Positions 11,001-50,003 of a stretch of DNA of 64,000 nt are shown here, piece after piece. Position 1 is the stretch's first letter, and every line of letters starts with the position of its first letter. The position numbers and the translations under genes were made by a program. Origin of the DNA: Flavobacteriaceae bacterium. GTDB taxonomy: Bacteria > Bacteroidota > Bacteroidia > Flavobacteriales > Flavobacteriaceae. The notes beneath the pieces are model-generated. The model had not been told where the DNA came from. It worked only from the letters and a program-made list of their open reading frames with translations, and did not search any database. Location: contig JAQWIL010000026.1 in the NCBI GenBank assembly GCA_029248885.1, positions 1 through 64,000 on the forward strand, written 5' to 3'.

Positions 11001-11969
11001 AAAAAGCGAAATTGCTTCTTTGAACCACACATTGGAGTTTTCACCACTTTCTCCCATCCACAAAGGAACATTGTACTGGTCTCGCATATCCAATACCCAT
11101 TGAATGGTGCTTTGCGTATTGACATTCCAGTATTTATGAAAGCTGTAAACCATATTGTCATCCCAAGGAGGTGTGAGCCCAGTGTAATCATTTGCAAACC
11201 AGTTCCCCTCAATAAAAATAATATGATTGGTATCATGGGAGCGAATTGCATTGGTGACTTGCACATAGAGGTTTTTGATTTCGGACCCACTCAAATTCCA
11301 GTTGGGTTCGTTTAAAATATCATACCCACCTATCCATTCCTCATTTTTGTAGCGTTCAGCCAATTTGTCCCATAAAGCCACCATTTTTTGTTTGTTTGCA
11401 TCGCTCTCCCACAAGGATGGTTTGCTGGTATCATAGTCTGAAATGCCTTGGTCATATCCCTGACCACCGGGCGCAGCATGAAGATCAAGTATCAGATAAA
11501 GCTGGTTGTCCTCACACCATTCTAATAAATCATCTACCATTTCAAACCCTTTGTCAAGCCAGGTGTTTTGTCCAGCTTCTTCTTGTTCGGTGGGAAGTGT
11601 GAACAAATTGTAATGCATGGGCAATCGAACACTATTAAACCCCCAACTTGCTAGGGAATCAATATCGGTTTTCGTCACAAAATTGTCAAGCCATTTATTA
11701 TAAAATTCTTGTGTATTTGCTTCTCCAATTAATGACTCTAACTTAGATCTAAACTGTTGCTGATTATCCGCTCCGCCAACAAAATTCATCATGTAGGGCT
11801 CCTGTAACATCCAGCCCCCAAGGCCAACCCCACGTAAGATTATTGGATTTCCATTTTTATCTAAAATTTGCTTCCCAGAAGTTGTAAGAAATTGGGCATT
11901 AGCAAAAACCCCAAAAAATAATATTAAAAGTACAGACAGTTTGCTAATAACATTATACAAGTTTTTCAT
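8058..11969 (-). CDS. GH5 glycoside hydrolase with five CBM6-like modules, T9SS-secreted
   Basis: A 1303-residue secreted enzyme. Signal peptide 1-25, then a GH5 catalytic domain (about 27-375) with acid/base Glu221 in YDILNEPNW and nucleophile Glu307 in WMGESGE. Five CBM6-like modules follow at about 413-570, 685-812, 820-947, 956-1085 and 1090-1222, the last four in tandem and each opening with an SGKIEAEDF/IPGKLQAED-type strand. A beta-sandwich at about 575-683 separates the first from the rest. A T9SS sorting domain (LFPNPS onwards, about 1235-1303) ends the protein. Many CBM6 bind beta-1,3-glucan and GH5 includes beta-1,3- and beta-1,6-glucanases, so an outer-surface glucanase is likely. 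I cannot assign the GH5 subfamily. Both catalytic glutamates are present. Confidence 0.92.
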   Translation of the reverse strand: MKNLYNVISKLSVLLILFFGVFANAQFLTTSGKQILDKNGNPIILRGVGLGGWMLQEPYMMNFVGGADNQQQFRSKLESLIGEANTQEFYNKWLDNFVTKTDIDSLASWGFNSVRLPMHYNLFTLPTEQEEAGQNTWLDKGFEMVDDLLEWCEDNQLYLILDLHAAPGGQGYDQGISDYDTSKPSLWESDANKQKMVALWDKLAERYKNEEWIGGYDILNEPNWNLSGSEIKNLYVQVTNAIRSHDTNHIIFIEGNWFANDYTGLTPPWDDNMVYSFHKYWNVNTQSTIQWVLDMRDQYNVPLWMGESGENSNVWFKEAISLFEDNDIGWAWWPWKRIETTVSSFSITSNSNYNAVVEYFKGNASAPSVSAAYQGLLEIAEASKIQNCQYRKDVIDAMLRQPNSEELKPFANHSIPGVVHATHYDMGSQGLAYYDTEYGNYSGSGGTTTWNRGWVFRNDGVDISTSNSGGSNSNGYSVGYVRDREWIKYTVNVLQDGYYDIKSTYAADDSGGKIQFEMNDNIITAALSLNSTGSFSNFETITTETPYLFSGEYQLKIRVLGDKEFNLESFTFNLSSNQSPAFKIIGGVINSNDKQVSLTFNKSILPSSIDKNEFTLLVNGEEIEIADAAMVSNNNVLVLTLTDYLSFYDQITVSASSGTLISSSNDSLLGFSNFEIVNLLDKINLIPGKIEAERFDDQIGIGVEDTTDIGLGTNIKDLHPGDFASYEIDIREGGNYMVECRVATIRDSVSFSLELRNGETMEFYTSISFSNTGGWQNWQTISKELDLEPGKFELVFRPMDNEFNLNWLNFTLINDTNRKSIPGIIEAEDFTLQEGLAVLSNSDIDAGSGLGYLNSGDFAIYDVRVEQQGTYNLQNRVATTYNGAQYNLDLISSDGKTYTISQVKPNNTGGWNNWQTVEQQVVVPKGNYDLKMTSIESEVNINWYNFIFESNNMQPTTLSGKIEAEDFFSHYGTNTENCNDIGGGKNISYLNPGDFTNYLVHVPNTGYFTIKARVSGYDESRFNLSLSSDNNPDEILHEFTTPKTNGWQNWQDTEGITILIKEGDYKLNFNVLEGTFNVNWFEFVHDENGGIQIPGKLQAEDYWDESGLNIENCYDVGGGQNLSYMNQGDYAKYLVHVGESGHYKIKARVSSSYSGGLFNLVLSDDSSDDTILNNFQVPNTGGWQNWQTVEKDFELIQGSYELTMNVIGNEFNLNWIEFDLIGPLSNSIFSSQEISLFPNPSAGNIFVKSEFPIDTIEIFSINGKQIDRLLIDNKTNFSIKPKLPKGLYLLKFNKHSIKKLLIQ
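8310..9915 (-). repeat. Four tandem CBM6-coding modules within the GH5 gene
   Basis: Four modules of about 130 residues follow each other with a period of about 390-410 bp. Each shows the order (I/L)xGK/I-xAE(D/R), (D/Y)xGxGxN, L/MNxGDF/Y, TGGWQNWQ and FNxNWxxF. The repeats are similar in protein but clearly diverged in DNA, so they are not a recent duplication. Confidence 0.8.
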
Positions 11970-11979
11970 CTAGAATGAA

Positions 11980-12858
11980 TTAAATGAGACTTTCGTGCTT
12001 GACCCAATCTACTTCCATGACCCACTCTCCATCCATAGGAGAGTCTGTAATTTTTGCAAAATTTAAAATAGCAAACATCGGCTCAGGGTAATTGTCTCCT
12101 AATCCTTCATTGCGATAGACCTCTTTATCATTCAAACGATAGACCAAGTCCCTGCCTTCCCATTCTACTGAATAGGTATTGAAGTCACTAAGTATCGTGT
12201 CAGCAGACGTACGTAAACTCCACCAATCTCCATTATCGCATTCTCCTAAGTTTTTAATTGCTCCAGTAGTGTAATGTCCACTACCATAATCTCCATGATG
12301 TTCAAATATGTCAATTTCACCAGAGCCAGTAAGCGGCCAACAAATATTTTCGTCGGGTTCTTGAACTGGCGGCTCGTTATTTTGAGCACCTAATATCCAC
12401 CAAGCTGGAAACATGGAAGGTTGGCTTTCACCATGAATACGCAGGCGGGCTGTCCATTTACCTTTTATAAACTCTTTCCGATTTTTGGATGCAATACGGC
12501 CTGCAACGTAATAGGTCTCTGGATGTTGGTTGCCATGCTTGTCCATATTATCGCATTCGATCTTTTCGCCAATATTAATGATCTTAATTTTCAGAGTGCC
12601 ATCACTGACTTCACGAGTTTCATATTGATTATCTGGAACATAACACTGTTTTTCATTGTTCACCCAAATGCGTTGATCTTGCCAATTGTCGGGATTAAAT
12701 GAATCAAAATCATCAAAAAAATCAATATTCCATTCTGAATTGCCTTCTACACCATTGTCAGTACTAGAAGATTCTAAAACGGAGATATCTGAAAACAAAT
12801 AAACTGCAATGAATGTTAAACCGACTAGCAGAATAGATAATATATTTCGTTTTTTCAT
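11980..12858 (-). CDS. GH16 beta-glucanase (laminarinase-like)
   Basis: A 292-residue GH16 enzyme. The catalytic motif EIDIFE (residues 181-186) is the ExDxxE type with the beta-bulge seen in laminarinases and lichenases; nucleophile Glu181, acid/base Glu186. The N-terminus has one hydrophobic segment (about 5-23) with no lipobox cysteine and no T9SS tail, so it is either periplasmic or anchored by an uncleaved segment, unlike its GH5 neighbour. It starts 18 nt after the GH30 stop and ends 10 nt before the GH5 start. Role by family: endo-hydrolysis of beta-1,3-glucan. Other GH16 activities cannot be excluded from sequence alone. Confidence 0.9.
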   Translation of the reverse strand: MKKRNILSILLVGLTFIAVYLFSDISVLESSSTDNGVEGNSEWNIDFFDDFDSFNPDNWQDQRIWVNNEKQCYVPDNQYETREVSDGTLKIKIINIGEKIECDNMDKHGNQHPETYYVAGRIASKNRKEFIKGKWTARLRIHGESQPSMFPAWWILGAQNNEPPVQEPDENICWPLTGSGEIDIFEHHGDYGSGHYTTGAIKNLGECDNGDWWSLRTSADTILSDFNTYSVEWEGRDLVYRLNDKEVYRNEGLGDNYPEPMFAILNFAKITDSPMDGEWVMEVDWVKHESLI

Positions 12859-12876: not shown

Positions 12877-14313
12877 TTAAGGCAAGTGATCAAATACGAT
12901 TGTCTGTATTGAATGCTTAGGGATTTTTAATTGTGTTGATTTATCACCAATTGTGAGAAAATAATCTACTGCTTCTACTTCTTCATTAAGGGCAATAACA
13001 ACAAGACTGCCGTCTTCATTCATAAAAGAAGTTGAACTAATTCTATTTGATGTGGTTCCAGATGAAACTCTTCTGGCACCAGGGCGAATAAATTTTGAAA
13101 AATGACCGATATAGTAGTAGGAATTTGTAAACAACAGCTCACCTGAAGATGAGTCGCCATGAACAGGTGCAAAACAAAAATTACCTACATGGTTAGGTCC
13201 ACCATATTCATTTAATAAAATATTCCAGTCTGTCCATGCAACTGTGCCATTATTAAAGTCGTTTATCATGGCTTTGGCATATCTTTCTGGGAGTTTTGGG
13301 TCTTGTATTCGATTGATATCAAAACCTTCATTACAACCTTCAGTAAAAATCAATTTCTTGTCTGGGAATGCTGTGGCGACCTTGCCAACATTATTGAACA
13401 TCGGCTTGCCATCTTTCCAATCCTCATACCAATGAAATCCTGTACCCCATACATATTTATTTGCTACGGGGTCATTTAATATTACACTTGCCCTATCAAA
13501 AAGCAAATCTCTGTTATGGTCCCAGACTATGATTTTCTTGTGCTGTAAGCCTTCACGCTCTAAAGTAGGTCCAAGATGATATTTCAGAAAATCACGCTCT
13601 TCTTCTGCAGTAAAAATACACGACTCCCAACGCTGAACAGCCATGGGTTCATTTTGAATCGTTAGTCCCCATATAGGAATCCCTTCATTTTCATAAGCCT
13701 TAATAAACTTTGCAAAATAATTTGCCCAAGCGGGATAATATTCTTGCTTTAATTTACCTCCATACAACATGTTGTTGTTTGTTTTCATAAATGCTGGGGG
13801 GCTCCATGGACTCGCATAAACAACAATATCTTTGGTGGCTACATCCAAAATCCTCTTGGTAAATGGGATCCTATATTTTAAATCTCTTTCAATTGAAAAT
13901 GTTTCTAGACTTTCGTCTCCCTCTTCAATGTATGTATAGCTTTCAGAAGAGAAATCACAACTGTGAATAATGGTTCTAGCAAGGGTATAACCAATCCCTT
14001 TATCTATCGAGAAATAAGATTCTAAGAAAAGCTCCTGCTGATCTTTGTTAAGCTTATAAAAAGTTTCCGCAGCGGCATCAGTAAGAGCTGCTCCAATTCC
14101 TACAAAAGTTTGAAAAGTGACTTTTGGGTTTACGAAAATTCCAGAATGAACTTCTTTTGGCTGCTGAATAGAAGTAAATTTTGGGACGATATTGGATTGT
14201 GCCAGCTTGATATTGGATTGGCTTTCGGTTGTATAAATCCGAACGTTAGACTCTAATTGTAGAGTGTCTAATGTACAAGTTAACGAAGAAAAGAGTATAA
14301 AAATTGAAAGCAT
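12877..14313 (-). CDS. GH30 glycoside hydrolase (probable beta-1,6-glucosidase/glucanase)
   Basis: A 478-residue GH30 enzyme. Acid/base Glu222 lies in TIQNEPMAVQRWE and nucleophile Glu325 in IFTEGCNEG; ASPWSPPAFMK (about 167-177) is also typical. The N-terminus MLSIFILFSSLTC is a short hydrophobic export signal; Cys13 may be lipid-modified, but the lipobox (SLTC) is non-standard. A TAA lies in frame just upstream of the ATG at 14313, which fixes the start. GH30 in laminarin loci removes beta-1,6-linked side glucose. It sits between the SusE-like lipoprotein (9 nt gap) and GH16. Confidence 0.9.
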   Translation of the reverse strand: MLSIFILFSSLTCTLDTLQLESNVRIYTTESQSNIKLAQSNIVPKFTSIQQPKEVHSGIFVNPKVTFQTFVGIGAALTDAAAETFYKLNKDQQELFLESYFSIDKGIGYTLARTIIHSCDFSSESYTYIEEGDESLETFSIERDLKYRIPFTKRILDVATKDIVVYASPWSPPAFMKTNNNMLYGGKLKQEYYPAWANYFAKFIKAYENEGIPIWGLTIQNEPMAVQRWESCIFTAEEERDFLKYHLGPTLEREGLQHKKIIVWDHNRDLLFDRASVILNDPVANKYVWGTGFHWYEDWKDGKPMFNNVGKVATAFPDKKLIFTEGCNEGFDINRIQDPKLPERYAKAMINDFNNGTVAWTDWNILLNEYGGPNHVGNFCFAPVHGDSSSGELLFTNSYYYIGHFSKFIRPGARRVSSGTTSNRISSTSFMNEDGSLVVIALNEEVEAVDYFLTIGDKSTQLKIPKHSIQTIVFDHLP

Positions 14314-14322
14314 TTTGGTGAA

Positions 14323-15537
14323 TTATAAGTTGTCTATTCCAAATAGTGAAATTTCTGATCCGTGACAAAATGAATCACTACCAAAATTGGAAGTAATACT
14401 AAACTTTAGATACCTGAACTCTGGGGATATCGCATCTAAATTAAAATTGTGCCCTGCTACAGCTTCGTCCAATAAGGGTTGAGAAATATCTCCATTTGTA
14501 GGTTCTTCAATTTGAAAACTTCCCAACAAAGCCCATTCGCTCTTATCCATACTCACAAATAAGTCAAAGCTTCTGAGATTTTCAGACTGATAGTAATAAG
14601 GCTGATCACCTGGGCCATCATACCAAAATGCTCGTTGCCATACCTTAAATCGATTAATCTTTACTTTTTTATTCAAGTCAATGACTATGTCTAAAGGCCA
14701 TCGTAGGACCCCACCATTGTCATTGCGATTGATAATAAAATAGCTGTTATCTGAATCCGTCTCGAATGTATCGACTACATCATCCCAAAAATTGACTGTA
14801 GCTCCCTCGTAGGCATTACCATCAATAGAAAGGTTACTGACCAGAGTCCATGTGTCTTTGTTGATTTTTTCTTCAAATAAGGGAGTAAAATATCCCTCAT
14901 CTATCAAAGAAGTGATATTCCCATCAAAATCTTCCACTTTTGTAGAAAAACCCAATTCTTTAGCCTCCAAACCACGAACAAAAATATTCTCGGTGGCATT
15001 TGATGATGATAAGATTCTTAGTTCTTCTTCATCGCCATCTGCTATGTGTAAGTAAATAAATACTGTTTTTTCTTCTATGTTTTCCCAGCTGACTTGCACT
15101 CCACCTAAATCTGGCACTATTTCAACGCTTTCTTGAACCAAATAGATAAACGATTGCAAGGGACGTATTTCATGCTCGACAGACTTGGACTTGTTTTGAT
15201 TTTCGTCAACTACAGTCAAACTTATTGTCACATCTTCTTCAACAACAAAGCCTGACACTTCAATTTGATTCACATGTTTACTCACAGTTCTAAAAACGGC
15301 CTCCCCTTTACCATTGGTGTAATCAGCACGTACAAATAAAATATCGTCATCGTTGGGAAGTGTATATGAAATGATTGCACCGCCGTAAGTGGCTTCAGTA
15401 CTCGTTATTGTCAGTTCGCCTGGGGGTGTGGTATCCTTTTTATCTTCCGATTCACAAGAAACTACCATAGAGATAAGCAGTAGCAAAATTGGAATACAAA
15501 TTATATTTCTCACGATAGATGTTTTTGAAGCTACCAT
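14323..15537 (-). CDS. SusE-position surface glycan-binding lipoprotein (DUF4959/DUF5126/DUF5000 type)
   Basis: A 404-residue lipoprotein. The signal peptide ends ISMVVSC, with the lipid-modified Cys at about 28 followed by acidic residues, as in surface-exposed lipoproteins. Beta-sandwich domains follow, and the C-terminal third (about 250-404, YEGATVNFWDD and RYLKFSI) resembles the discoidin-like DUF5000 domain. Its ATG overlaps the SusD stop by 7 bp, so the two are translationally coupled. By position it is the surface glycan-binding protein of the SusC/D complex. No catalytic residues are evident. Confidence 0.8.
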   Translation of the reverse strand: MVASKTSIVRNIICIPILLLLISMVVSCESEDKKDTTPPGELTITSTEATYGGAIISYTLPNDDDILFVRADYTNGKGEAVFRTVSKHVNQIEVSGFVVEEDVTISLTVVDENQNKSKSVEHEIRPLQSFIYLVQESVEIVPDLGGVQVSWENIEEKTVFIYLHIADGDEEELRILSSSNATENIFVRGLEAKELGFSTKVEDFDGNITSLIDEGYFTPLFEEKINKDTWTLVSNLSIDGNAYEGATVNFWDDVVDTFETDSDNSYFIINRNDNGGVLRWPLDIVIDLNKKVKINRFKVWQRAFWYDGPGDQPYYYQSENLRSFDLFVSMDKSEWALLGSFQIEEPTNGDISQPLLDEAVAGHNFNLDAISPEFRYLKFSITSNFGSDSFCHGSEISLFGIDNL

Positions 15538-17444
15538 TGTGGATTCTGAATTAAATTAGGGTTTGTTACAAGTTCGCTTGTTTGAATTGGATGTAGGTAA
15601 TCTCTTGGCGTTTCAAAGGATCTAATACCAACGTCAATTACTTTGTAAAAATTTGCATCTGAATTTTCATCAACAGACCAACCACGAACATTGGAATTAA
15701 AGTACTGGTCAGCTAATTTCCATCTTCTAATATCATTATATCTGTGTCCTTCAAAAGCGAGTTCTATCATTCGTTCTTGCCGAATAATTTCCCTGAGGCC
15801 GCTCTGGGTCGTATGTTTGTTTACATTTTTTGCCAAAGAGGCGTTGCTCCAAACCACCTCAACATCTGGGATACCTGCTCTACTTCGAACAACATTAAGG
15901 GCATCATAAACTGCTTGGCTTGGACCATAGGCTTCGTTTAATGCTTCGGCATAATTGAGGTATAGCTCAGCCAGTCGTGCGTTTGGCCAAGGATATCGAA
16001 TTAACTTATCATATGCATCCCCCTCAGAATCAGGGTGAATAAGCTTTTTTAACGAAAATCCAGTAATTAAATAATCACTTGAGTTGGCTATTCGACCATG
16101 CGTTTGACCCTTTTTCATTCGAAGGTTCCAAAGCTCTCCCCAAGCTCTGTACTGACCAGCATCAAAACCAATAGAAGAGTAAAACCTTGGTTCTCTATGT
16201 AGATGTAATTTTGCTGTCTTAAGGCCTGGAAGCGCATACATTTTTTGCGAACTGGAAACTCTTACTGTACTGAATTTATCAGAAAAGTCATGCATTAAAT
16301 CTTCCTCAATTGGAAGCCCATTTTCGGTATAATATAACTCGGCCATTCTCATGGTTGGTGCTACCCATTGCCATGCAGCCTGAACCGAAGACGCTGTTGG
16401 ATCTTTCATCAACGCACCTGATTGAAGGCGCCACCAGTCGTTTACAGGATTCGAATCGCCCCACAGGACTTCTGAATTCCATTTATCTACTATTGAATAC
16501 TTTATATCATAGAGTGTTCTAATTGTTATATATTGGAAATTTGACTGGTCATGTCGAGGAACGCTCCCTGTGTATTTATACAACTCTGCTCCTTGTGCCA
16601 ATGCAGCAGCTATTGCATCCTCAGCAGATATTGCTGCTGTTTCCCACTTACTTATTTCATTGTTTTGATTAAAGAAGTGAACACCCTCATGATTTAAGAA
16701 ATCACTGTAAAACTCCGAATTTCCATTAAAAAATGGGCTAGCTGCATAGAGGCTTACTTTTGATTTAATCGCATGAGCAATCACCTGATCCATACGCCCC
16801 AAATCATTACTTCCTGTCACACGTTCAGGCAAATCAGAAATCGAAAGGTCTAAAGTGTTCAAAATATATGTGACTACTTCATCAACTGTATTTCTGTGAA
16901 CTCGTAACTCCTCATCTGATGCATCAATTGGGAGATTCACATCAACAGTTGGAATAGGACCATAATAGTTGAGCAGTAAAAAGTGGTAATATGCTTTCAA
17001 TACTGTTGCCTCTGCTTTCCAAGTATTTTTTTCAACTTGGGTCATGTCCACTGCCTGATCAATATTGGCAATGAGGGTGTTACACGCCCGAATTCCATCC
17101 CACAACGAACCCTGTCCTCTTCCACTAGCACCATAACCAGACCAAAAACTCATGATAGGATTGTCCGCTACTTGCTGACCTTTCATCAGTTTAATGGAAT
17201 TTGGCTCTTTTGCTAATGGCGTTGTAAGCTCGTCACTCGCCAATGTGAAAGTTGCATATAAGCCATCATTTTGAGGGAGATAGCTGTAACATGTAACTAA
17301 AGCTGGATATGCTGCTTCTTTGCGCTGAAACATTAAAGAAACTTCTTGCGTTTTGTCAGGAACGATATCTAAATATTTATCACAACCTAATAACCCAAGC
17401 AAAACAAATGAGCAAAAAACGATATGTTGTATTGTCTTTTTCAT
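15531..17444 (-). CDS. susD: SusD/RagB-family glycan-binding lipoprotein
   Basis: A 637-residue SusD homologue. The lipoprotein signal MKKTIQHIVFCSFVLLGLLG is followed by Cys21 and DKYLDIVPD, the usual SusD N-terminus. The C-terminal half has PNARLAELYLNYAEALNEA and EIIRQERMIELAFEGHRY, both hallmark SusD/RagB segments. It caps the SusC transporter on the outer membrane and delivers oligosaccharide to it. Its start lies 2 nt after the SusC stop, as in nearly all SusC/D pairs. Confidence 0.95.
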   Translation of the reverse strand: MKKTIQHIVFCSFVLLGLLGCDKYLDIVPDKTQEVSLMFQRKEAAYPALVTCYSYLPQNDGLYATFTLASDELTTPLAKEPNSIKLMKGQQVADNPIMSFWSGYGASGRGQGSLWDGIRACNTLIANIDQAVDMTQVEKNTWKAEATVLKAYYHFLLLNYYGPIPTVDVNLPIDASDEELRVHRNTVDEVVTYILNTLDLSISDLPERVTGSNDLGRMDQVIAHAIKSKVSLYAASPFFNGNSEFYSDFLNHEGVHFFNQNNEISKWETAAISAEDAIAAALAQGAELYKYTGSVPRHDQSNFQYITIRTLYDIKYSIVDKWNSEVLWGDSNPVNDWWRLQSGALMKDPTASSVQAAWQWVAPTMRMAELYYTENGLPIEEDLMHDFSDKFSTVRVSSSQKMYALPGLKTAKLHLHREPRFYSSIGFDAGQYRAWGELWNLRMKKGQTHGRIANSSDYLITGFSLKKLIHPDSEGDAYDKLIRYPWPNARLAELYLNYAEALNEAYGPSQAVYDALNVVRSRAGIPDVEVVWSNASLAKNVNKHTTQSGLREIIRQERMIELAFEGHRYNDIRRWKLADQYFNSNVRGWSVDENSDANFYKVIDVGIRSFETPRDYLHPIQTSELVTNPNLIQNPQW

Positions 17445-17446
17445 TG

Positions 17447-20400
17447 TTAAAAGTTTATTTGTAATCCAATATTCATAATTCGTTGAGGTGGATAACCCAG
17501 ACCATTTCCGCCCATTTCAATATCCCATAAATCAAACTTGCTTATTGTAAAAAGGTTTTGACCACTGGCGTAAAAACGCGTACTCAAATTTTTAATACTA
17601 AGCCATTGTTCAGGGAGCGTATATCCAAGCTCAATTGATTTTAGTCTTAAAAAGTCACCATCTCTCAACCACCAAGTGGAATCTAGATTATTGTTGAGTA
17701 CCTCTTCTGTTGATAGTCTTGGCCAAAAGGCATAAGGATCAGGGTTATTTTCCGACCAATGATTGTTACTTATAATACTCAATGCATTTCTTTCATTTAT
17801 AAAAGGAGAAATATTAGATGGTTGGATAAAGAATGATGATTTTGCTGCCCCTTGGAAAAAAAAGGAAAAATCGATGTTTTTATAGCCCATAGATGCACCA
17901 AAACCATATATAATTTCAGGCACAAATGGGTTGCCAATTGGTGTTTTATCAAGCTCACTGATTTTGCCATCGCCGTTCAGGTCTTTGTACTTGATGTCAC
18001 CAGGGAGATATGCGTTCTCGTTAGATGAAAGTCCATTAAATTGCTCTGGAGAATTAAGTATATCTGATTCATCAATAAACAAGCGTTCAGCAACATATCC
18101 TCTTGGTTGGTTGGTGTGATAGCCAATAGCACTCAAATATGAGTTGGGATACTGAGGTTCATTTTTAACCATTACCTCATTGGTGGCATAAGTAAATGTC
18201 CCACGACCTGTGATGTAGAACCCATTGGCATACGAACGATTATAGTCTATGGCAATGTCGATACCCTCCGAAAAAACCTGCCCAGAATTGCTACTGACTG
18301 TGGAAGTCAAACCAGCTGTTTTTGGATAAACAGGGCGCTCCTCATATATTTTTTTTCGATTTTCGGTAAAATAATCCAACTGCAAAACGAAGTCTTCATT
18401 TATGCCTAACTCAACACCATAATTTGATTTTTCAGCAACTTCCCATGTGACATTTGCGTTTGGATAGCTGTTTATATTGTAACCATTATAGTAATTGTTG
18501 TAATCAGCACCCCAAGCATAACCACGTCCACCATCACCAAGATTTACATCAGATAAGTAGAAAAATCGGGAGCTGCCAATATTATCATTCCCGACAAGGC
18601 CGTAGGTGTATTTTAACTTAAGTAATGAAATCGATGGAAATGTGTTCTTGAAAAAATCTTCGTTTGACACAATCCATCCCAAGCCTGCAGATGGAAAAAA
18701 ACCAAATCGATTGTCTTTGACAAACTTTTCAGACCCATTATAACCAAAATTCAGCTCTAAAAAATAACGATCATCATATCCATAGGTTCCCCTTCCAGAT
18801 AAACCCATATTTCGGGCAGGTAGCGAAGCAAAAACTGAATTGTTAGAATACTTATTAAGCGCCTCATTAAAGTTGAAAACCAACAATCCCCCCAATTGAT
18901 GCTTATCCTTAAACAATCGATCGTATTGGGTTGTAAACTCGTAATAATAGTTACTATTTACTGCGTTGGAAGTACTATTGTTACTTAAAAATTCTGTACC
19001 CTCTTGTATTTGATATAATCTATTGACAATACCAAGTTCTGTTTGTGACTCTTCGATTCCATAATAGAATGGATTAAAGCTACGTTCGTTTTGTGTTGCC
19101 GAATAACCTTTAACTGCCACCAATGCTCTAAATGAAAGTCCTTCTGTAATGAAATCCAGGTCTTGTTTCAATTGGATTTGTGATAAAATCGTTGCACTAA
19201 AACGATCTTTATATCCTCGCACCATGTCTGCATAAGGGTTCGGAAAACCTCCATTTCCTTTATTTCCAAAAAGAGTGTGATTGTATTGGCTAAATTGATT
19301 TTCGAAAGTGTAAAACTTTGGGAAATTGACAGGGTTTGCCTGTGCTACTTTCCCAAAAATATCATTTGCACTCTCGATCGGGCCATTATAACGTTCAAAG
19401 AATGAGTTGAACTTGACAGCAATATTTGTGGTTTTGGTTAAATTGATATTAATATTTGCCCGAAGGTTAGACCGATTGATATTGATGTTATTGTTAAAAT
19501 TATTCAAAGGGTCAACTTTTAGCAGCCCTGTGTCATTTGTATGTGAAACAGAAAGATAATATTGCGAAACATCTCCACCGCCATTCACGTTGAGATTAAA
19601 TTTTTTGTTGATGGTATTATTTTCAAACAATTCATCATACCAATTGAGGTTTGGATAAATATTTGGATCTGGATTGTTTCTAGTGGCCTCAATTTTATTT
19701 TTACTGTAATACAATGGAGCTGATGGGTCACGCATACGGAGTGCTCTATTGTAGAGCTCCATATATTCTACTCCATCTAAAAAGCTAGATATTTGTGTGG
19801 GAGCAGAAAACTTCGTTTCATAGCGAAAAGCAACTTTTGCTTTTCCTTTATTACCCTCTTTGGTTGTAATTAAGATAACTCCATTTGCACCACGTGCTCC
19901 ATACAATGATGTTGCTGTAGCATCTTTCATCACAGAAAAACTGGCAATGTTGTCTGGTTCTATACGAGCTAGATCGTCAGTGGTCACTTCCAATCCATCG
20001 ATAAGGATCAGCGGACTGTTCGAGTAGCCAAAAGAAGTGACGCCACGAACAAAGAATTCTGCATTGTCTGCCCCTGGTTCTCCCGAACGTTGGTACGAGA
20101 TTACACCAGAAATTCTACCTGCAATTGATGCAGATAGATTTGAGTTTGGCTGATTTAATTCGGCTGGTTTTATAGTGGTTATCGAACCGATAACACTATT
20201 TTTCTTTTGTTTTTGAAAGGCAACAACCTGAACTTCTTCTAGTGCTTCAGCAGATTCTGATAGGATAACATCTAGATATCTATTTTCAGTTACAGGAACT
20301 TCTTTGGTTTCAAATCCTAGGTATGAAAAAATTAATGTTGCGTTTGCTGATGAAACCGTAAGAATATAATTCCCATCTAAATCGGTTACAACTCCATTGG

Positions 20401-20548
20401 AGGTGTCTTGCTCAAAAACGGTTACGCCTGGAAGGGAAACACCTTGATTGTCAACAACAGTACCTGAGACTAAAAAACCTTGCGCACAGATTGTTTCCAA
20501 AAAAAGAGCCATGAGAGCTATAAGCGGAAATAATATTTTTTTGTGCAT
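17447..20548 (-). CDS. susC: SusC/RagA-family TonB-dependent outer-membrane transporter
   Basis: A 1033-residue SusC homologue. Signal peptide (ends ETICAQ), carboxypeptidase-regulatory-like domain at about 27-105 (SGTVVDNQGVSLPGVTVFEQ), TonB-box region EEVQVVAF, plug domain at about 120-240 (DATATSLYGARGANGVI), then the beta-barrel ending with a C-terminal aromatic-rich strand (IMNIGLQINF). There is no N-terminal STN domain, so it does not look like an anti-sigma-coupled receptor. It imports glucan oligosaccharides with TonB energy. A strong hairpin lies just before its start codon. Confidence 0.95.
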   Translation of the reverse strand: MHKKILFPLIALMALFLETICAQGFLVSGTVVDNQGVSLPGVTVFEQDTSNGVVTDLDGNYILTVSSANATLIFSYLGFETKEVPVTENRYLDVILSESAEALEEVQVVAFQKQKKNSVIGSITTIKPAELNQPNSNLSASIAGRISGVISYQRSGEPGADNAEFFVRGVTSFGYSNSPLILIDGLEVTTDDLARIEPDNIASFSVMKDATATSLYGARGANGVILITTKEGNKGKAKVAFRYETKFSAPTQISSFLDGVEYMELYNRALRMRDPSAPLYYSKNKIEATRNNPDPNIYPNLNWYDELFENNTINKKFNLNVNGGGDVSQYYLSVSHTNDTGLLKVDPLNNFNNNININRSNLRANININLTKTTNIAVKFNSFFERYNGPIESANDIFGKVAQANPVNFPKFYTFENQFSQYNHTLFGNKGNGGFPNPYADMVRGYKDRFSATILSQIQLKQDLDFITEGLSFRALVAVKGYSATQNERSFNPFYYGIEESQTELGIVNRLYQIQEGTEFLSNNSTSNAVNSNYYYEFTTQYDRLFKDKHQLGGLLVFNFNEALNKYSNNSVFASLPARNMGLSGRGTYGYDDRYFLELNFGYNGSEKFVKDNRFGFFPSAGLGWIVSNEDFFKNTFPSISLLKLKYTYGLVGNDNIGSSRFFYLSDVNLGDGGRGYAWGADYNNYYNGYNINSYPNANVTWEVAEKSNYGVELGINEDFVLQLDYFTENRKKIYEERPVYPKTAGLTSTVSSNSGQVFSEGIDIAIDYNRSYANGFYITGRGTFTYATNEVMVKNEPQYPNSYLSAIGYHTNQPRGYVAERLFIDESDILNSPEQFNGLSSNENAYLPGDIKYKDLNGDGKISELDKTPIGNPFVPEIIYGFGASMGYKNIDFSFFFQGAAKSSFFIQPSNISPFINERNALSIISNNHWSENNPDPYAFWPRLSTEEVLNNNLDSTWWLRDGDFLRLKSIELGYTLPEQWLSIKNLSTRFYASGQNLFTISKFDLWDIEMGGNGLGYPPQRIMNIGLQINF

Positions 20549-20623: not shown

Positions 20624-22237
20624 TTATTTAATAATCAATCTTTGAACTTGAGACTTAATTTTTAAGAAATACAATCCCCTGTCCAGTTTGTCAACAGCAA
20701 GTTTGTTCTTAACAATAACCTCATTTAAGTGCTCACGCCCTAGTACATCAAATACCTGAACAACCTCACCTTCAACATTGCCAACAAAGGTCAGCTGTGT
20801 ACTAGCAGGGTTTGGGTAAAAGGCAAATGATGGAACAAAAATCTCATTTACATCCAAAGTACTCGAGCTAGGGATAAGTATTGGATTACTTGCTGACATA
20901 ATTCCATTAACGTCATCAGTAGTAATTGATCCATATGTTCCACCTCCAGCTTTTATCACTAAATAATAAGTGCCAGAAGTACTAACTGTGAAGAATCCAT
21001 TGTCTGGGGTAAGAGTGGTATTATTTTCTGTTGTAGCCCAACCTTCATCAGCTCCTATGTTAGTAGCGTAATCATCAGCTGATTTAACAGATCCCCAACC
21101 GTGGGCAATTTTCAACAATTTGGTGTCATCATCTCCATAGTCAGCTGGATCGGTTGGCTGAGCTACTCCAAGATGAGCTTCAAACCAAACATCTGAAATG
21201 TCAGCGTATTTACCTTTAACATCAAATTGATAAGTTCCTGCATCCAAGTTAACAGCTTGATATATTCCATATCCACTCCATTCGCCACCATCAGGGCTTT
21301 TAATAAATGAAACTTCGCCATTTCCAAATGAGACGCTTGCTCGCGTATTATCATCTGAGTCTGTATTAAAGGTAGTCCACCCAGTGCCATCGTTCCATGC
21401 TGTATTGGTTAGCATATTTTCACTAGCACCTATTGTAATCCAATCAACAGTTGATTGAGATTCATTTGCACTACTCGAGGTTGCAGTAAGTTTAACATAG
21501 TAATCCCCATCAGCACCATATGTGTGTGTAGGACTTGCTTCAGTAGAAGTATTTCCATCACCAAAATCCCAAGTATAAGAGTCTGCAGAAGATGAAGTAT
21601 TTGTAAATAAAACTGTGCTTGCATTGACACTTGACGTAAAACTTGAAGATGGAGAGCTCGCCAATTCGTAAAGTGTGAAATTATCAAATGAGTGATTTCC
21701 ATAACAGGAACCTCCGGTTCTGTACAAAAAGTAATAAGTGCCATCCGCTGAGACTTCAAAAATACCGGTTTCTCCTGCACCACTAACTCTACCTGACTCA
21801 CTCATTTTACCAGAGTAGGATGGTTTAACTTCATTACCAAGAAAAGTAAATAAGCGACCATCACCATTATACTCAGCATTGTTTTGAGGCTCAGTAGAAC
21901 CCCAATAGAATTCTCCCCAACCATCATTGTAGTCTGAAAGTGTAATATCACAATCCAATTGATATCTTCCAGCAGTAAGTGTTACACTTGTATAAAAAGC
22001 TACATGATGCCATGACTCGCACACATCAGAAACTTCAATAGCACCATTATTAACACCTAATAATACACTCTCTGGAGGAGTAGGTGTGCCATCTACATCG
22101 ACTGTACTATCAGTGCCATACATGTTCAAAAAAGTCCAACCAGTTTCATCATCGACTGTACCATTAGTCAATAGATTTGTTTGTGCATTTATGGATAATG
22201 ACAAAAACATTGTAATTAATAAGTAAAAATTCTTCAT
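20624..22237 (-). CDS. PKD-containing surface glycan-binding protein, T9SS-sorted
   Basis: A 537-residue secreted protein, first structural gene of the locus. Signal peptide 1-18 (LSINAQ); CBM4-like beta-sandwich at about 20-190 (NLLTNGTVDDETGW, tryptophan-rich); PKD domain at about 195-270 (SYTWDFGDGNTSTEASPTHTY); second CBM4-like module at about 275-435 (NMLTNTAWNDGTGW); T9SS sorting domain at about 468-537 (FYPNPAS). The two outer modules share the TNG/TNT-x-W opening and TYYFLYRTGG/TYYLVIKAGG strands, so they arose by duplication. No catalytic motif is seen. Proteins with this PKD arrangement occur in flavobacterial laminarin loci as binding proteins; that assignment is by context. Confidence 0.85.
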   Translation of the reverse strand: MKNFYLLITMFLSLSINAQTNLLTNGTVDDETGWTFLNMYGTDSTVDVDGTPTPPESVLLGVNNGAIEVSDVCESWHHVAFYTSVTLTAGRYQLDCDITLSDYNDGWGEFYWGSTEPQNNAEYNGDGRLFTFLGNEVKPSYSGKMSESGRVSGAGETGIFEVSADGTYYFLYRTGGSCYGNHSFDNFTLYELASSPSSSFTSSVNASTVLFTNTSSSADSYTWDFGDGNTSTEASPTHTYGADGDYYVKLTATSSSANESQSTVDWITIGASENMLTNTAWNDGTGWTTFNTDSDDNTRASVSFGNGEVSFIKSPDGGEWSGYGIYQAVNLDAGTYQFDVKGKYADISDVWFEAHLGVAQPTDPADYGDDDTKLLKIAHGWGSVKSADDYATNIGADEGWATTENNTTLTPDNGFFTVSTSGTYYLVIKAGGGTYGSITTDDVNGIMSASNPILIPSSSTLDVNEIFVPSFAFYPNPASTQLTFVGNVEGEVVQVFDVLGREHLNEVIVKNKLAVDKLDRGLYFLKIKSQVQRLIIK

Positions 22238-22354
22238 TTTTTTATTTTTAGATTTTGTTATAAAATTCTTAATGCTTAAACAATAAAATTTTTATATTGA
22301 AAATTATTACAATGCAATTTTATAAATTTCTTAATGTAAGAAAAAAAGTATACG

Positions 22355-22391
22355 CCCTAAAGAAACCCTACATAGTTGATTAAAAACCCTA
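22355..22391 (-). promoter_or_regulatory. Three helically phased TAGGG boxes upstream of the glucan operon
   Basis: On the minus strand TAGGG starts at 22391, 22370 and 22359, i.e. spaced 21 and 11 bp, two turns and one turn of the helix. The first two extend to TAGGGTTT. A weak -7 box (TACTTTTT, 22343-22350) lies just downstream, and no TTG is present at the -33 distance, as expected of an activator-dependent promoter. Candidate operator for the LuxR-type regulator encoded next door. Confidence 0.5.
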
Positions 22392-22416
22392 TAAATACAC
22401 TACAAGAGTGTTGATA

Positions 22417-25257
22417 CTAAAGTGAACATATATAGTTGTACAGATCAGACCTCTCAGCTAATCCAAGCTTTTTTCGGAGTCTATATCGCGTCATTTCCAA
22501 GCTTTTTGGATTAATATTTAGTAAAGAAGCCATTTGTTTGTTAGGAATGTTTAATTTGATAAAGGCACAAATACGAATATCATTGGGTGTAAGATCGGGA
22601 TGTAATTCGTCGAGTTTACTAAAAAAGTTAGGGTTTGATTTTTTAAAATGAAATTCAAATTTAACCCAATCGTAAGTTTCTTTCAGATCGATATCAATTC
22701 TTTTGACAATTGATCTCATCTTAGGACTTAACTCTTTTCCCTTTTTTACATCATTTAGTTTAAAAATGTGATTTTTTAAATTGATAAGTAAATCGTTTTT
22801 CTTTATATTATTGTAGGTGGTAAAAGCCAGTTCTTGGTTTCTATTTTTGATTTCCAATTGAAGCTTGTCTTGCTCAAGAGCCAACATTGTTTTTTCATCC
22901 TTTAGCTTTTGTAATTCCAGTCTATTAATTCTCTCTTTCTGTTTTCGCTTTTCCTTTTTGATTAAACGTTCACTTTTCTTTTTGTTCCTTATTTCCTGCC
23001 TTACTGTTACAATTAAAAAGAATCCCATAGTTAAAACTGCGTAGATCATAAATGCAGCTGTTGACAAGTACCATTTGGGTTGGATTTTAAATTCAAATTC
23101 GATATTGTCAGAAAAGTTTCCTTGTTGATCATTTGTTCTGATGTAAAACTTATAATTATTTGTTTCAAGCCCATTTATTTTTATAACTAAATTATCATCG
23201 GCTTCAAACCATTTGCCCTCATCATTTACTTTGTATTCAACGACATGAGTTGAACTACCCAAGTAATTTGGAAGTTGTGCCTGAATTGAAAGCGAGTTGC
23301 TTGCATACGGAAAGGACTTGATATTGTCCTGTACAATAGTATGCTGAATGGTATCATTTATCCCTACAAATTTGACTGTCTTGATCAGTGGTTTTTGAAC
23401 AACACTATCCCTCCCTTGTCGGGCAATCGCTTCTTCATTAAATACAAACACTTGGTCTTCTGAATTAAACAAGACATACTTTTCGTTGAGGCGTTTAAAT
23501 TTTGAAAAATCACCAAGAGTTTTGATTTTTTTATTTTTAAACAATGTTGATTTACGAAGCTCCAAATCAAACAATCCGATGTGTTTGTTGGTCGAGAACC
23601 ACAAAGAGTTATCAAGTTGTTTTACAAAACTTAGGTCACTTATACCCTTAAACAGTTCGGTCACAGCACTGCTTTTATAAAATGCTTTGTCTGTATCGTC
23701 GTATTTATAAAACCCCTGAGGATTATAAAATATCAATGCATCGTTTAGTTTAAAAAAGTAGTTGTAAAACAGTTCATCATCAGAATCGAAGTTCTTTAAA
23801 AATTCAAAGGACTTTATATTTTCAAGGTTATCGCTTAATCCTAATTTGAAAAAGCCTTTAGCAGGGTGACAAACCCACAAATAATTGCTGTCAAACTCCA
23901 TAAATCGAGAAGAGTCATAAAATCCATCCAGACGCTTGTAAAATGACCATTTCCCATTGTTTTTCTTTAGTATAAGAATTCCATTATATGTACCACAGTA
24001 GATCAAATCTTTTCTGCTGTCATGTTGTTTAAAATCCCATACACCATTGACAGGGTGTAATAATCTCAGTGAATTGTCACGTTCGTAAATGAATATCCCT
24101 TTTTCGTGACCAACAAAAACAGTATTATCTATTTTTTCAATGTGCCAATTAACGCCTTGGCTATTTTTTACCAAGGATGCAAGACTGCTTTTTGACCTTA
24201 TATCTGTGCTAAATAAGCCTTGGTTTGTCGCGTTTAAAAATAGATTATTATGAAGTATAAAACCATGACTCTGCCCTTGATTTTTGGATTCTTTTATATA
24301 ATGAACTACATTGTTTTGTTTTATATTATGAATCACTTTATCACTAATTGCCCAAAGGTTCTCTTGAGCGTCCTCATAAAGTCCGTTTATATAATTTGAT
24401 TGGAGACCATCTGTGTCAGTAATTGTTTTCTTGGGTCTAAATTGGTTGTCAAGAATATAAATCCCATTTTGATTTGTTCCAATGACGATTTGATTGTTTT
24501 TGTTACGTATTGCGGTATTTATAACAATAGATTTTAAATTGGCTACATTTCGAGTTGAAGTTCCTTTTTTTGACCAAACTTGGCCATTTTTAAAAATAAA
24601 AACGAAATCATTTTGGGCAATTTCAAAAACGTTAATAAGATCACTGACTGTTTGCTTGAAGTCATCAAACAGCGTCATGTCATCCCCTTGAATAGTATAA
24701 ATACTGCCTTGGAAATCGCTAAAGAATAAATATGATGAAGTCTTAAATATATTTTTGTAGTATTCAGGTGCTTTGAGAGTCGTGATGTTTCCATCTTTTG
24801 GATTGAAAAAGAACAACTGATCTTGGGATTTAAACACCATGTGGTTTTCATGTGATACGATATTGCTAAATATTGGCTGTAAATAATCTTCTTTTGTGGG
24901 GGCTACATAGTGTAAACTTGTATATTCAAAACGACCATATTCATTCTTTTCCCAAAGCCCAAAGCCACCAATTCCAGCGCTATAGATTAGCTTGTCAGAA
25001 AAAATATAAATCGAGGTTAGATTTGTAAGCTTTCCCTTTCTGTACAAAAAGTGATTGACACCATCGGTTTCCAACAAACCTTTAGATGTTGCCATATAAT
25101 AAAGACCATTCTCGGCTTGTTTCAGTTGCTCAACATTTCGAACACCCATTTCAGAGATGTTAAAGCTCGTAATAAATGGTGCAGTTACTTTATCTAATTG
25201 GCAGAAACCTACAGAGCAATGAATAAAAAATACAGTAAATAATAAAAGAAACTTCAT
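22417..25257 (-). CDS. Membrane-spanning LuxR-type regulator with periplasmic propeller and Y_Y_Y domain
   Basis: A 946-residue sensor-regulator. Signal peptide 1-19, a periplasmic beta-propeller region (about 25-640) with two-component-regulator-propeller-like motifs, a Y_Y_Y domain (about 650-735), one membrane helix (about 738-757, AAFMIYAVLTMGFFLIVTV), a charged coiled coil (about 760-830), and a C-terminal LuxR-type helix-turn-helix (about 885-946; LTPNDIRICAFIKLNIPNKQ, then LNINPKSLEMTRYRLRKKLG). There is no histidine kinase, ATPase or receiver domain, so it would be a one-component regulator that binds glucan fragments outside and DNA inside, comparable to SusR. It lies upstream of the operon on the same strand with a 179-bp gap. 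Confidence 0.88.
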   Translation of the reverse strand: MKFLLLFTVFFIHCSVGFCQLDKVTAPFITSFNISEMGVRNVEQLKQAENGLYYMATSKGLLETDGVNHFLYRKGKLTNLTSIYIFSDKLIYSAGIGGFGLWEKNEYGRFEYTSLHYVAPTKEDYLQPIFSNIVSHENHMVFKSQDQLFFFNPKDGNITTLKAPEYYKNIFKTSSYLFFSDFQGSIYTIQGDDMTLFDDFKQTVSDLINVFEIAQNDFVFIFKNGQVWSKKGTSTRNVANLKSIVINTAIRNKNNQIVIGTNQNGIYILDNQFRPKKTITDTDGLQSNYINGLYEDAQENLWAISDKVIHNIKQNNVVHYIKESKNQGQSHGFILHNNLFLNATNQGLFSTDIRSKSSLASLVKNSQGVNWHIEKIDNTVFVGHEKGIFIYERDNSLRLLHPVNGVWDFKQHDSRKDLIYCGTYNGILILKKNNGKWSFYKRLDGFYDSSRFMEFDSNYLWVCHPAKGFFKLGLSDNLENIKSFEFLKNFDSDDELFYNYFFKLNDALIFYNPQGFYKYDDTDKAFYKSSAVTELFKGISDLSFVKQLDNSLWFSTNKHIGLFDLELRKSTLFKNKKIKTLGDFSKFKRLNEKYVLFNSEDQVFVFNEEAIARQGRDSVVQKPLIKTVKFVGINDTIQHTIVQDNIKSFPYASNSLSIQAQLPNYLGSSTHVVEYKVNDEGKWFEADDNLVIKINGLETNNYKFYIRTNDQQGNFSDNIEFEFKIQPKWYLSTAAFMIYAVLTMGFFLIVTVRQEIRNKKKSERLIKKEKRKQKERINRLELQKLKDEKTMLALEQDKLQLEIKNRNQELAFTTYNNIKKNDLLINLKNHIFKLNDVKKGKELSPKMRSIVKRIDIDLKETYDWVKFEFHFKKSNPNFFSKLDELHPDLTPNDIRICAFIKLNIPNKQMASLLNINPKSLEMTRYRLRKKLGLAERSDLYNYICSL

Positions 25258-25277
25258 GTATTTCTCTGATGATTAAA

Positions 25278-25308
25278 CAAATGTAAACAAAAGCAATAGA
25301 TCACTCAA
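25278..25308 (-). promoter_or_regulatory. Promoter of the LuxR-type regulator gene
   Basis: On the minus strand TTG (25308-25306), a 20-nt spacer, then TACATTTG (25285-25278), an exact TAnnTTTG -7 box. The ATG at 25257 lies about 20 nt downstream. Spacing and both boxes match the Bacteroidetes vegetative promoter. Confidence 0.65.
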
Positions 25309-25462
25309 TTTATTCAAAAATATAAGCTTTGCATTTTTAGTTTTGTAGTTTATAATAATTAGCCGAACACTACATTTTGTAGATTATTCTATTTGACAAG
25401 CTGATAATTTGGAACAAAATCACGATCACAAAGTATTGGTTGTTTTCGTCAAATCATCCTCA

Positions 25463-25495
25463 AAATAATTCGATTTCGCTCCCCTATCCTCCACT
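25463..25495 (+). repeat. Intergenic direct repeat, copy C
   Basis: The core is AAATAATTCGATTT followed by CGCTCCCCTATCCTCCACT. It shares the left flank CAAATC with copies A and D. It lies between the regulator and the YHYH/sulfatase cassette and forms the right-hand bracket of the glucan locus. Confidence 0.8.
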
Positions 25496-25598
25496 GATTA
25501 TTTCCTGGGATAATAATTTATTCTTGAGAATGTTTTTTTTACAATTTCTAAAACTTTACTAGCTTTAAAAGGTCTAATAGATTAACTCAAGATAACAA

Positions 25599-26576
25599 AT
25601 GAATCTTAGAATTGTAATTATACTAATTGGATTGTTATTCATGTCATGTGAAAAAAATGATTCTTCATCACAAAAAGATGAAGAAACTACAAATTGTTCA
25701 ACAGGAACATCTACAGCGAATGTTTTGATAAATATTGATGAAGAAATTTTCAATGATGACGAATCTGTTTTGGCGCTTAGCAAGTATTCGTGGTCATCAG
25801 ACGGAACAAACAGAATCTTGAACGGAAATGGCATTCCGAATCATGAAGTAGGCACCTTCCCTAGTTCAAATAATCCAAACAGCATTAGCGCACAAAATGT
25901 TAGTGAAAGTTTTACGCTTTGTCCTTCAATAATTTATGAAAGTGGTCTTGAGGTGGTTGGTCCTGCCATGGCTATTGCTTATGCGTTAAACAGTGTAAAA
26001 TTTGATCCCGCTACTGCAGGTAGATGCAATGATGCTGGCGAATGTAGTTTAGCTCGTGGAGAGGGAAACTGGAATATTGAAGCTTTGGGACATGATACCT
26101 TTGATTTTGGAGATGATATGAATCATGCGCATGTTCAACCCAATGGTGCCTATCATTATCATGGAATCCCTGAGCTACTTATTGATTTTTTAGGAGATAA
26201 AGATGGTATGACCCTAGTTGGATGGGCATCCGATGGATTTCCAGTCTATGCAAGGTATGGCTACGCTGACCCAGAAAATTCACAAAGTCAATCAAAAGCG
26301 CTAACCACCAGCTATCGATTGAAATCTCAACCTGATGAAAATCGGCCAAACACACTAACGGCAATTCTTGGTGGGCCAAACGCAAATAGTAATATCAATA
26401 AACCCATTCCAATGGGTGCATTTACGCAAGACTATGAATATATAGAAGGGCTTGGAGATTTAGATGAATGTAACGGAAGGTTTGGCGCTACTCCTGAATT
26501 TCCTAATGGGATTTACTACTATGTTGTTACTGATGATTTCCCCTTCTTTACACGTTGTTTAAAAGGGGGTGCTTAA
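25599..26576 (+). CDS. YHYH-domain lipoprotein
   Basis: A 325-residue lipoprotein: signal MNLRIVIILIGLLFMS with Cys17, followed by EKNDSSSQKDEE, a charged linker typical of surface lipoproteins. The diagnostic segment NHAHVQPNGAYHYHG lies at about 172-186 (YHYH family), with several other His, Asp and Cys residues, suggesting a metal- or ligand-binding site. The biochemical function of the family is not established. The sulfatase gene starts 3 nt after its stop, so the two form one transcription unit bracketed by repeats C and D. Confidence 0.85.
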   Translation: MNLRIVIILIGLLFMSCEKNDSSSQKDEETTNCSTGTSTANVLINIDEEIFNDDESVLALSKYSWSSDGTNRILNGNGIPNHEVGTFPSSNNPNSISAQNVSESFTLCPSIIYESGLEVVGPAMAIAYALNSVKFDPATAGRCNDAGECSLARGEGNWNIEALGHDTFDFGDDMNHAHVQPNGAYHYHGIPELLIDFLGDKDGMTLVGWASDGFPVYARYGYADPENSQSQSKALTTSYRLKSQPDENRPNTLTAILGGPNANSNINKPIPMGAFTQDYEYIEGLGDLDECNGRFGATPEFPNGIYYYVVTDDFPFFTRCLKGGA

Positions 26577-26579
26577 AAA

Positions 26580-27926
26580 ATGAAGACAATCAAGCATCTC
26601 AGCAAGAATTACAAACAAGGTTTTTTAGCTCAGTCTACAATCTTTGTACTGCTTATCATCTTCTTTTGTAATTCCTGCGAAAAACAGCCAGTAAATACCT
26701 CTGAAGCCCCAGAAAAACCTGAAAGTGTCTTGCCAAACATTTTATTAGTCATTGCCGATGATATCGGAAAAGATGCTTTTCCAAATTATCCCGAAGGGCA
26801 GGAAAAGCCACAATTACCAATACTGAACAACTTAATGGTTAGTGGAATTACATTCGATAACTTGTGGACTTACTCTGTTTGTTCACCTACAAGAGCTTCC
26901 ATATTGACCGGAAAATTGGGGCATCATACAGGAGTAATGGAAGTAGAGCAAGATATTTCACTGAATGAGGAGTCTTTACACGACTTTTTGAAAGACCAAA
27001 CAAACGGTGGCTATGACACAGCATTAATCGGCAAATGGCATTTGTCAAACACATTTACTGATCCAAATTCCATGGGGGTAGATTATTATTCAGGTATTAT
27101 AGGAGGAGGTGTGTCCTCATATACAAACTGGAATAGAGTGACAAATGGAGAAAGAGAGTCAGCGACTACTTACACCACCACCGAATTTTCTAATCAAGCA
27201 ATTCAATGGGTTAGTCAACGAACAAAGCCTTGGTTTTTATGGCTTGCCTACAATGCGCCACATACACCATTCCATCTTGCCCCAACAAATTTACATAGTC
27301 AAGGGAGTTTATCTGAAGATGAAGCTGTTATAGAAGCAGCCCCCTTGCCGTATTATTTTTCTGCAATCGAATCCCTTGACGCTGAGTTGGGTCGAATTAT
27401 TGAATCAATTCCAAATGGTCTTGAGAACACTATTGTGGTATTTTTAGGGGATAACGGAACTCCTGGTAAGGTTGTTCAATTTCCTTATCGAAAAAGAAGA
27501 GCGAAGGGGAGTATTTTTCAAGGTGGTATAAATGTTCCTATGGTTATTTCTGGAGCAGGAATAACTAGAAAAGGAGAACGTGAGGATGCGTTAATTCAAT
27601 CTACAGACTTATTTACTACAATTGCGCAAATGGCAGGTTCTACTATTTCAGAAAAACACAACAGTAAAAGTTTCCACCCCTTACTTAGCGACCCAAATGC
27701 TACTTCAAGAACATATGCGTATGCAGAGAATTCAACAGACGGAAATGTGAGCTATACAGTTAGAGATTCTAAGCACAAGCTAATCGTCGATGCCGATGGA
27801 ACAGAATCGATTTACGATTTAATTAGTGACCCTTACGAAAGCAATAATTTGCTGACCAATCCATCGCCAACAATAAACGTGGTCCGGAATATTTTATTTC
27901 AAGAAGCTTTACGAATTCGAAAATAA
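26580..27926 (+). CDS. S1-type (arylsulfatase-like) lipoprotein sulfatase
   Basis: A 448-residue sulfatase. The motif CSPTRASILTGK starts at Cys101; CxPxR is the site where Cys is converted to formylglycine. Metal-site segments ADDIG (59-63) and FLGDNG are present. The N-terminus has an export segment ending FFCNSC with a Cys at about 33, probably a lipoprotein. It is expected to remove sulfate esters, likely from algal polysaccharide, in the periplasm or on the surface. Laminarin carries no sulfate, so its substrate is probably different from that of the neighbouring glucan locus. The activating enzyme is not in the window. Confidence 0.9.
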   Translation: MKTIKHLSKNYKQGFLAQSTIFVLLIIFFCNSCEKQPVNTSEAPEKPESVLPNILLVIADDIGKDAFPNYPEGQEKPQLPILNNLMVSGITFDNLWTYSVCSPTRASILTGKLGHHTGVMEVEQDISLNEESLHDFLKDQTNGGYDTALIGKWHLSNTFTDPNSMGVDYYSGIIGGGVSSYTNWNRVTNGERESATTYTTTEFSNQAIQWVSQRTKPWFLWLAYNAPHTPFHLAPTNLHSQGSLSEDEAVIEAAPLPYYFSAIESLDAELGRIIESIPNGLENTIVVFLGDNGTPGKVVQFPYRKRRAKGSIFQGGINVPMVISGAGITRKGEREDALIQSTDLFTTIAQMAGSTISEKHNSKSFHPLLSDPNATSRTYAYAENSTDGNVSYTVRDSKHKLIVDADGTESIYDLISDPYESNNLLTNPSPTINVVRNILFQEALRIRK

Positions 27927-48819: not shown

Positions 48820-48821
48820 TT

Positions 48822-49877: not shown

Positions 49878-49987
49878 AAAAATATTATGTTTGATTGATT
49901 CGCACCAAATCTATTCTGCAACCATGACAAAACCGTAGCATCAATTCTTATTTTCACTGGCGTATATTGTAAAATTGATTCGAGTTA

Positions 49988-50003
49988 GGTTTTCATGAAA
50001 ACC
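49988..50003. promoter_or_regulatory. Perfect 16-bp palindrome upstream of the HMA-like gene
   Basis: GGTTTTCATGAAAACC is identical to its reverse complement. It lies 41 bp before the ATG at 50045, a usual place for the operator of a dimeric regulator. It could also fold into a 6-bp RNA stem with a CATG loop. Confidence 0.45.

Follow-up and report, generated by a model that had tools for sequence, protein, structure and literature searches.

Four direct-repeat TAGKG boxes spaced 11, 21 and 11 bp apart lie on the minus strand between a regulator gene and the operon that follows it in the window, the 64,000-nucleotide stretch of Flavobacteriaceae DNA (contig JAQWIL010000026.1) analysed here; about 75 related loci were compared overall. 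This array is probably the operator of an activator-dependent promoter for a beta-glucan operon, controlled by the adjacent membrane-type LuxR/NarL-fold regulator, where we infer both binding and the direction of control from sequence.

Box array, operon and regulator

The array lies within the 179-bp intergenic region that separates the regulator stop codon from the operon's first gene, which starts at 22237; the array begins 14 bases past the stop codon. Three minus-strand TAGGG boxes were found at 22387-22391, 22366-22370 and 22355-22359 (spacings of 21 and 11 bp), exactly where the initial annotation had described them. Its count of three was too low, however, as the orthologous loci revealed a conserved fourth box, TAGTG at 22398-22402, situated 11 bp upstream of the first TAGGG. 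Numbered in the direction of transcription, boxes 1 to 4 are predicted to lie at -92 to -88, -81 to -77, -60 to -56 and -49 to -45, respectively, relative to the transcription start proposed below. They form two pairs of adjacent boxes with equivalent positions 32 bp apart, about on one face of the helix, and the same-strand box distances in the window are 11, 21 and 32 bp, plus one of 43 bp.

As a word, TAGGG is about as frequent in the window as expected (63 copies compared with 60). Dinucleotide shuffles of the whole window produced at least three same-strand TAGGG words within 37 bp in 2 of 300 cases and the exact 21/11 phasing in none of 300, while at least three same-strand copies in the 179-bp intergenic region arose in 1 of 20,000 local shuffles. 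The three-box pattern is unique in the window's genome (a 1.5-Mb, 78%-complete assembly), which holds no second site without mismatch; with two mismatches allowed there were four matches including the window site, no more than for the reversed control (19). Among 399 genomes of the bacterial family the window-type array was found in the window only, together with one match resembling a simple repeat.

Regulator and operon are co-directional on the minus strand. The first operon gene (20624-22237) encodes a PKD-domain surface protein with a T9SS sorting domain, and is followed on the same strand by genes for a SusC/RagA-type TonB-dependent transporter (17447-20548; TIGR04056), a SusD-type glycan-binding lipoprotein (15531-17444; PF07980), a likely surface glycan-binding protein (14323-15537; DUF4959/DUF5126/DUF5000), a GH30 enzyme (12877-14313) whose closest model is an endo-1,6-beta-glucanase of the BT3312 type, below that model's cut-off, a probable beta-glucanase (11980-12858) with weak matches to the EglC and BglS models and a GH16-like appearance by eye, and a GH5 enzyme with CBM6 modules and a T9SS sorting domain (8058-11969). 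The presence of the GH30 enzyme, the probable beta-glucanase and the GH5-CBM6 enzyme beside SusC/SusD makes "glucan operon" a fair name. A YHYH-domain protein and a sulfatase are encoded on the opposite strand beside the regulator (25599-27926). GC content is 0.31-0.33 over the regulator gene and promoter (22001-26000) compared with 0.35-0.42 over most of the window, and another dip occurs at 48001-50000.

The regulator gene (22417-25257, minus strand) encodes a protein of 946 aa with a weak propeller repeat in its sensor part, one membrane helix that runs into a coiled coil, and a C-terminal LuxR/NarL-type helix-turn-helix (HTH). An AlphaFold model of the C-terminal part (mean pLDDT 85.6) comprises a long helix, corresponding to the membrane segment running into the coiled coil, then a helical region and a four-helix HTH (helices at 164-174, 179-185, 190-204 and 212-218 in the model). 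The best structural relatives of the HTH found by Foldseek were the DNA-binding domains of StyR, VraR, FixJ, LiaR, NarL, DosR and GerE, with probabilities of up to 0.99 and E-values that are weak because the domain is short; for LiaR, NarL, VraR and DosR these values are about 0.98 and 0.2-1, respectively. Against NarL (1je8), LiaR (4wt0), VraR (7ve5), DosR (1zlk) and GerE (6jqs), approximately 58 residues could be aligned with a target TM-score near 0.7. PF00196 (GerE) was detected in 25 of 30 family members (best 2.8e-7), the window member falling below the Pfam cut-off. By its model, its structural matches and the PF00196 hits of its family, this four-helix C-terminal HTH of GerE fold belongs to the LuxR/NarL (GerE) DNA-binding domains. 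No histidine kinase, receiver or AraC-type HTH was matched by Pfam in the regulator even at E-values up to 5, and a single-sequence search of the PDB gave no match.

Orthologous loci and distant homologs

A scan of the genome collection recovered five regulators closely related to that of the window (70-92% identity), four of which had enough downstream DNA for alignment; the fifth (L034, 70%) was left out because its contig ends 6 bases past the regulator. A whole-genome search for further close orthologs found none beyond a relative of the same genus (G309). TAGKG boxes at 11-21-11 are present in the window and in all four aligned orthologs, with the single exception of a TGGGG at box 2 of L031, where the other loci have TAGGG. 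Box 1 reads TAGTG or TAGGG in each of the four orthologs as well as in L036, and boxes 3 and 4 are TAGGG or TAGTG in the orthologs. Across the five loci, mean pairwise identity reaches 90% in the box cores, 78% in the whole array and 80% in the -7 element, but falls to 58% in the 21-bp spacer, to 49% in the stretch that separates box 4 from the -7 element, and to 46% in the leader. The boxes came through the comparison with orthologous loci by which the initial annotation had proposed to check them. In the same-genus genome the regulator shares 37% identity with that of the window, and its gene leads directly into TAGGG-11-TAGGG-20-TAGTA-11-TAGGG, beyond which lies a different gene.

Two orthologous loci, L032 and L033, retain the array although their first operon gene encodes a different surface protein. 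With the regulator, the array and (in L032) SusC kept while the first-gene product (window 20624-22237) is exchanged, this arrangement amounts to cassette exchange behind a constant operator. We also noted a transposase-like ORF upstream of the orthologous regulator in L032 (2758-3444), and the orthologous locus there may therefore have moved as a unit.

Of 300 genomes sampled from the bacterial family, 179 gave matches to more distant members of the regulator family (about 30% identity), most of which immediately precede a co-directional SusC gene. The DNA past the stop codon of 25 discovery loci suggested a family box, TTGT(A/T)(G/T)NGG, in the intergenic region; 40 more loci were fetched, and the count was made on all 65. 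In these loci the box matched 258 times, and in shuffles 43 times. Pairs on the same strand were 11, 21 and 32 bp apart in 44, 22 and 25 cases (shuffles 0, 0.05 and 0.15), made up of 17, 9 and 10 in the discovery loci and 27, 13 and 15 in the 40 held-out loci, although the loci are related to one another and the counts are not independent. In a control on 25 loci, 36 pairs at these three distances were found downstream of the regulator, whereas the remaining test regions gave 2, 0 and 3.

The 5-base boxes of the window match the family 9-mer only partially. Most distant loci (L006-L030 and L041-L080) have inverted boxes at approximately +2, +23 and +34 past the stop codon in addition to a forward pair near the promoter, a different arrangement that makes the four-box forward array particular to the window's subgroup. 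Distances from the inverted boxes to the promoter pair cluster near 112, 123-124, 134 and 145 bp with a period near 11 bp (39 loci), a clustering reached in 0 of 2000 trials under two null models, both of which ignore relatedness; it suggests helical phasing and possibly looping.

The box sequence itself varies with the recognition helix of the regulator: SLEMT occurs with TAGKG, SVEQ with TAGAG, and SVE[VI]K with TTGTTGAGG or TTGTAGTGG. This correspondence between box class and helix class is suggestive only, as it involves three clades in which each class is confounded with phylogeny.

Promoter element and its link to the regulator

A putative -7 element, TAAAATTG, lies at 22315-22322 on the minus strand, 31 bp past box 4 when the distance is counted from the 9-mer frame of that box. 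It has one mismatch to the consensus TAnnTTTG and its position is conserved. Across the family the element takes the form TAnnTTTA/G, and among 53 loci with a forward 11-bp pair it was found exactly 31 bp past the second box in 41; all other offsets contributed five further matches (46 in total over 70 offsets). At 31 bp the best -7 score of the window and SVEQ groups was also obtained, with 5 of 6 bases in 9 of 10 loci compared with 2 of 10 at the next offset. The 31-bp spacer is only 39-49% identical among the family promoters, whereas identity reaches 83% in the boxes and 88% in the -7 bases; such poor conservation of the spacer makes it unlikely that the constant length merely reflects shared descent.

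Mapped flavobacterial promoters have TAnnTTTG at -12 to -5 (PMC9723704), a placement that predicts transcription of the operon to start at about 22310 (minus strand, about 2 bp either way). The boxes would then span about -45 to -92 and stand clear of the -33 position on its upstream side, instead of covering it as the initial annotation had it. Its proposed start near 22336 is about 26 bp away from the one predicted from the conserved TAAAATTG, and we rejected that start, with boxes over -33, because the TATACTTT found there is unconserved in the orthologs. Its remark that no TTG is present is correct for the relevant stretch, 22323-22353 on the minus strand, where we found none at -33. The window promoter therefore shares with flavobacterial housekeeping (sigma-A) promoters (PMC9723704) the -7-like element but not the -33 TTG, and has instead a box array that ends a fixed 31 bp upstream. 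A scan for E. coli-type promoters returned nothing. In six of the family loci (L047, L052, L056, L057, L077 and L079) the 31-bp position is taken by TAnnTTG-type boxes, for example TACATTGT, TACCTTGT and TAATTTGC, which resemble the SM5 motif (TAnnTTGY) of Flavobacterium psychrophilum and perhaps point to another sigma factor.

Searching 120 genomes for the box pair followed by N31 and TAnnTTT gave 27 matches, compared with one for the reversed pattern. Coordinates compared by hand placed 19 of the 27 just downstream of a regulator homolog, five on the regulator's contig and strand but 8-21 kb distant, and three elsewhere. A regulator homolog is present in 68 of 119 genomes, and the 25 that yielded a match all belong to these (8e-8 if genomes are independent). 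The copies at 8-21 kb, in G034, G028, G045, G071 and G061, are second copies of the promoter pattern and probably represent a second promoter of the same locus or a second operon in the same regulon.

Mode of regulation and relation to known systems

The initial annotation had read its boxes as a candidate operator at a promoter that depends on an activator, namely the LuxR-type regulator encoded next to it. That core survives, with the array following the regulator across orthologs and distant homologs, the box class following the recognition helix, and the distance to the -7 element fixed at 31 bp; the number of boxes, the start and the overlap with -33 had to be revised. In the mechanism we propose, the periplasmic sensor part of the regulator would meet a glucan fragment, which would lead to binding of the array. 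The C-terminal LuxR/NarL-fold domain would bind one box per monomer, such that two dimers or one tetramer would occupy the four boxes, and the regulator would recruit RNA polymerase from -45 to -92 in replacement of the missing -33 contact.

Three things favour activation over repression: where the boxes lie, the lack of a -33 element, and analogy. Box position alone leaves the direction unfixed, and LuxR/NarL-type proteins can activate as well as repress, so the regulator might instead bind the array as a repressor, or use it both ways, with glucan derepressing the operon. We consider this unlikely, as the last box is separated from the -7 element by 31 bp, a placement that is typical of activators and leaves both -7 and +1 uncovered, and as basal activity should be low in the absence of a -33 TTG. 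The SusR-type systems studied are also activators (PMC3878776).

It is less likely still that the array is the site of another, global regulator, such as a Crp-like or catabolite factor, and that its place next to this regulator is coincidental. Control of many polysaccharide loci is layered, and the link between array and regulator comes from sequence comparison; but a global factor is at odds with an array that occurs once in the window's genome and to which 399 family genomes add only the simple-repeat-like match, with a box variant that follows the recognition-helix class, and with a family promoter pattern confined to genomes that have a regulator homolog. A role of the boxes in RNA, as part of a terminator of the regulator gene or as a leader element, would fit the start of the array so soon after the stop codon, but is very improbable: we rejected it because no terminator-like hairpin was found and RNA folding is not unusual (z = -0.22), and the repeats are direct and not inverted, with a helical spacing and fixed 31 bp to the -7 element that point to DNA. 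A chance cluster in AT-rich DNA, for which the ordinary frequency of TAGGG in the window might speak, is contradicted by the shuffles, the orthologous conservation and the family-wide spacing rule, and is the least credible explanation of all.

An operator of the adjacent activator, as we favour, has partial parallels among known polysaccharide-utilization regulators. As with SusR and SusR-like proteins of Bacteroides, the regulator lies beside susC/susD genes and its predicted sites repeat in one orientation along a single helix face, and the GH30 enzyme here recalls the Bacteroides 1,6-beta-glucan locus, in which the SusR-type regulator BT3309 occurs with a GH30 1,6-beta-glucanase (PMC5481569). 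Predicted SusR sites, however, consist of two repeats 67 or 77 bp apart (PMC3878776), distances not found among the 11, 21, 32 and 43 bp of the window. HTCS sites are direct repeats with an average spacing of 21 bp (PMC3878776), equal to that between boxes 2 and 3, and HTCS share a propeller-type sensor. In contrast to their two repeats there are four boxes here, with only one spacing of 21 bp, and in place of the kinase, receiver and AraC-type HTH of HTCS, none of which was detected, there is a LuxR/NarL-like domain. That domain has the C-terminal four-helix HTH of LuxR/NarL/GerE proteins, but is carried on a membrane-type propeller protein and not on a receiver or acyl-homoserine-lactone protein, and its operator is a tandem array with an 11-bp period. 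With the tested HTCS features and the SusR operator spacing both failing, the array appears to be a distinct variant of the direct-repeat operators of polysaccharide-utilization regulators, set apart from SusR by spacing.

We tentatively extend this to the family, in which flavobacterial membrane-type LuxR/NarL regulators could share an operator code of 11-bp box units on one helix face, with exactly 31 bp between the boxes and the -7 element downstream. Most members have in addition the phased inverted set directly past the stop codon, so that the membrane-anchored regulator would loop the DNA or span both sites, and the window array would be a compact, non-looping version. In the literature we found motif work on Bacteroides SusR and HTCS and no described binding site for this regulator family, an absence that is no proof of novelty. 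A concrete code of box, spacing and fixed -7 distance makes it possible to predict the sugar-utilization promoters under each regulator and their transcription starts. It also gives a straightforward way to test how a one-protein regulator of membrane type gains access to RNA polymerase. The hosts of this regulator family, in which the regulator is often found beside susC, are the main marine polysaccharide degraders.
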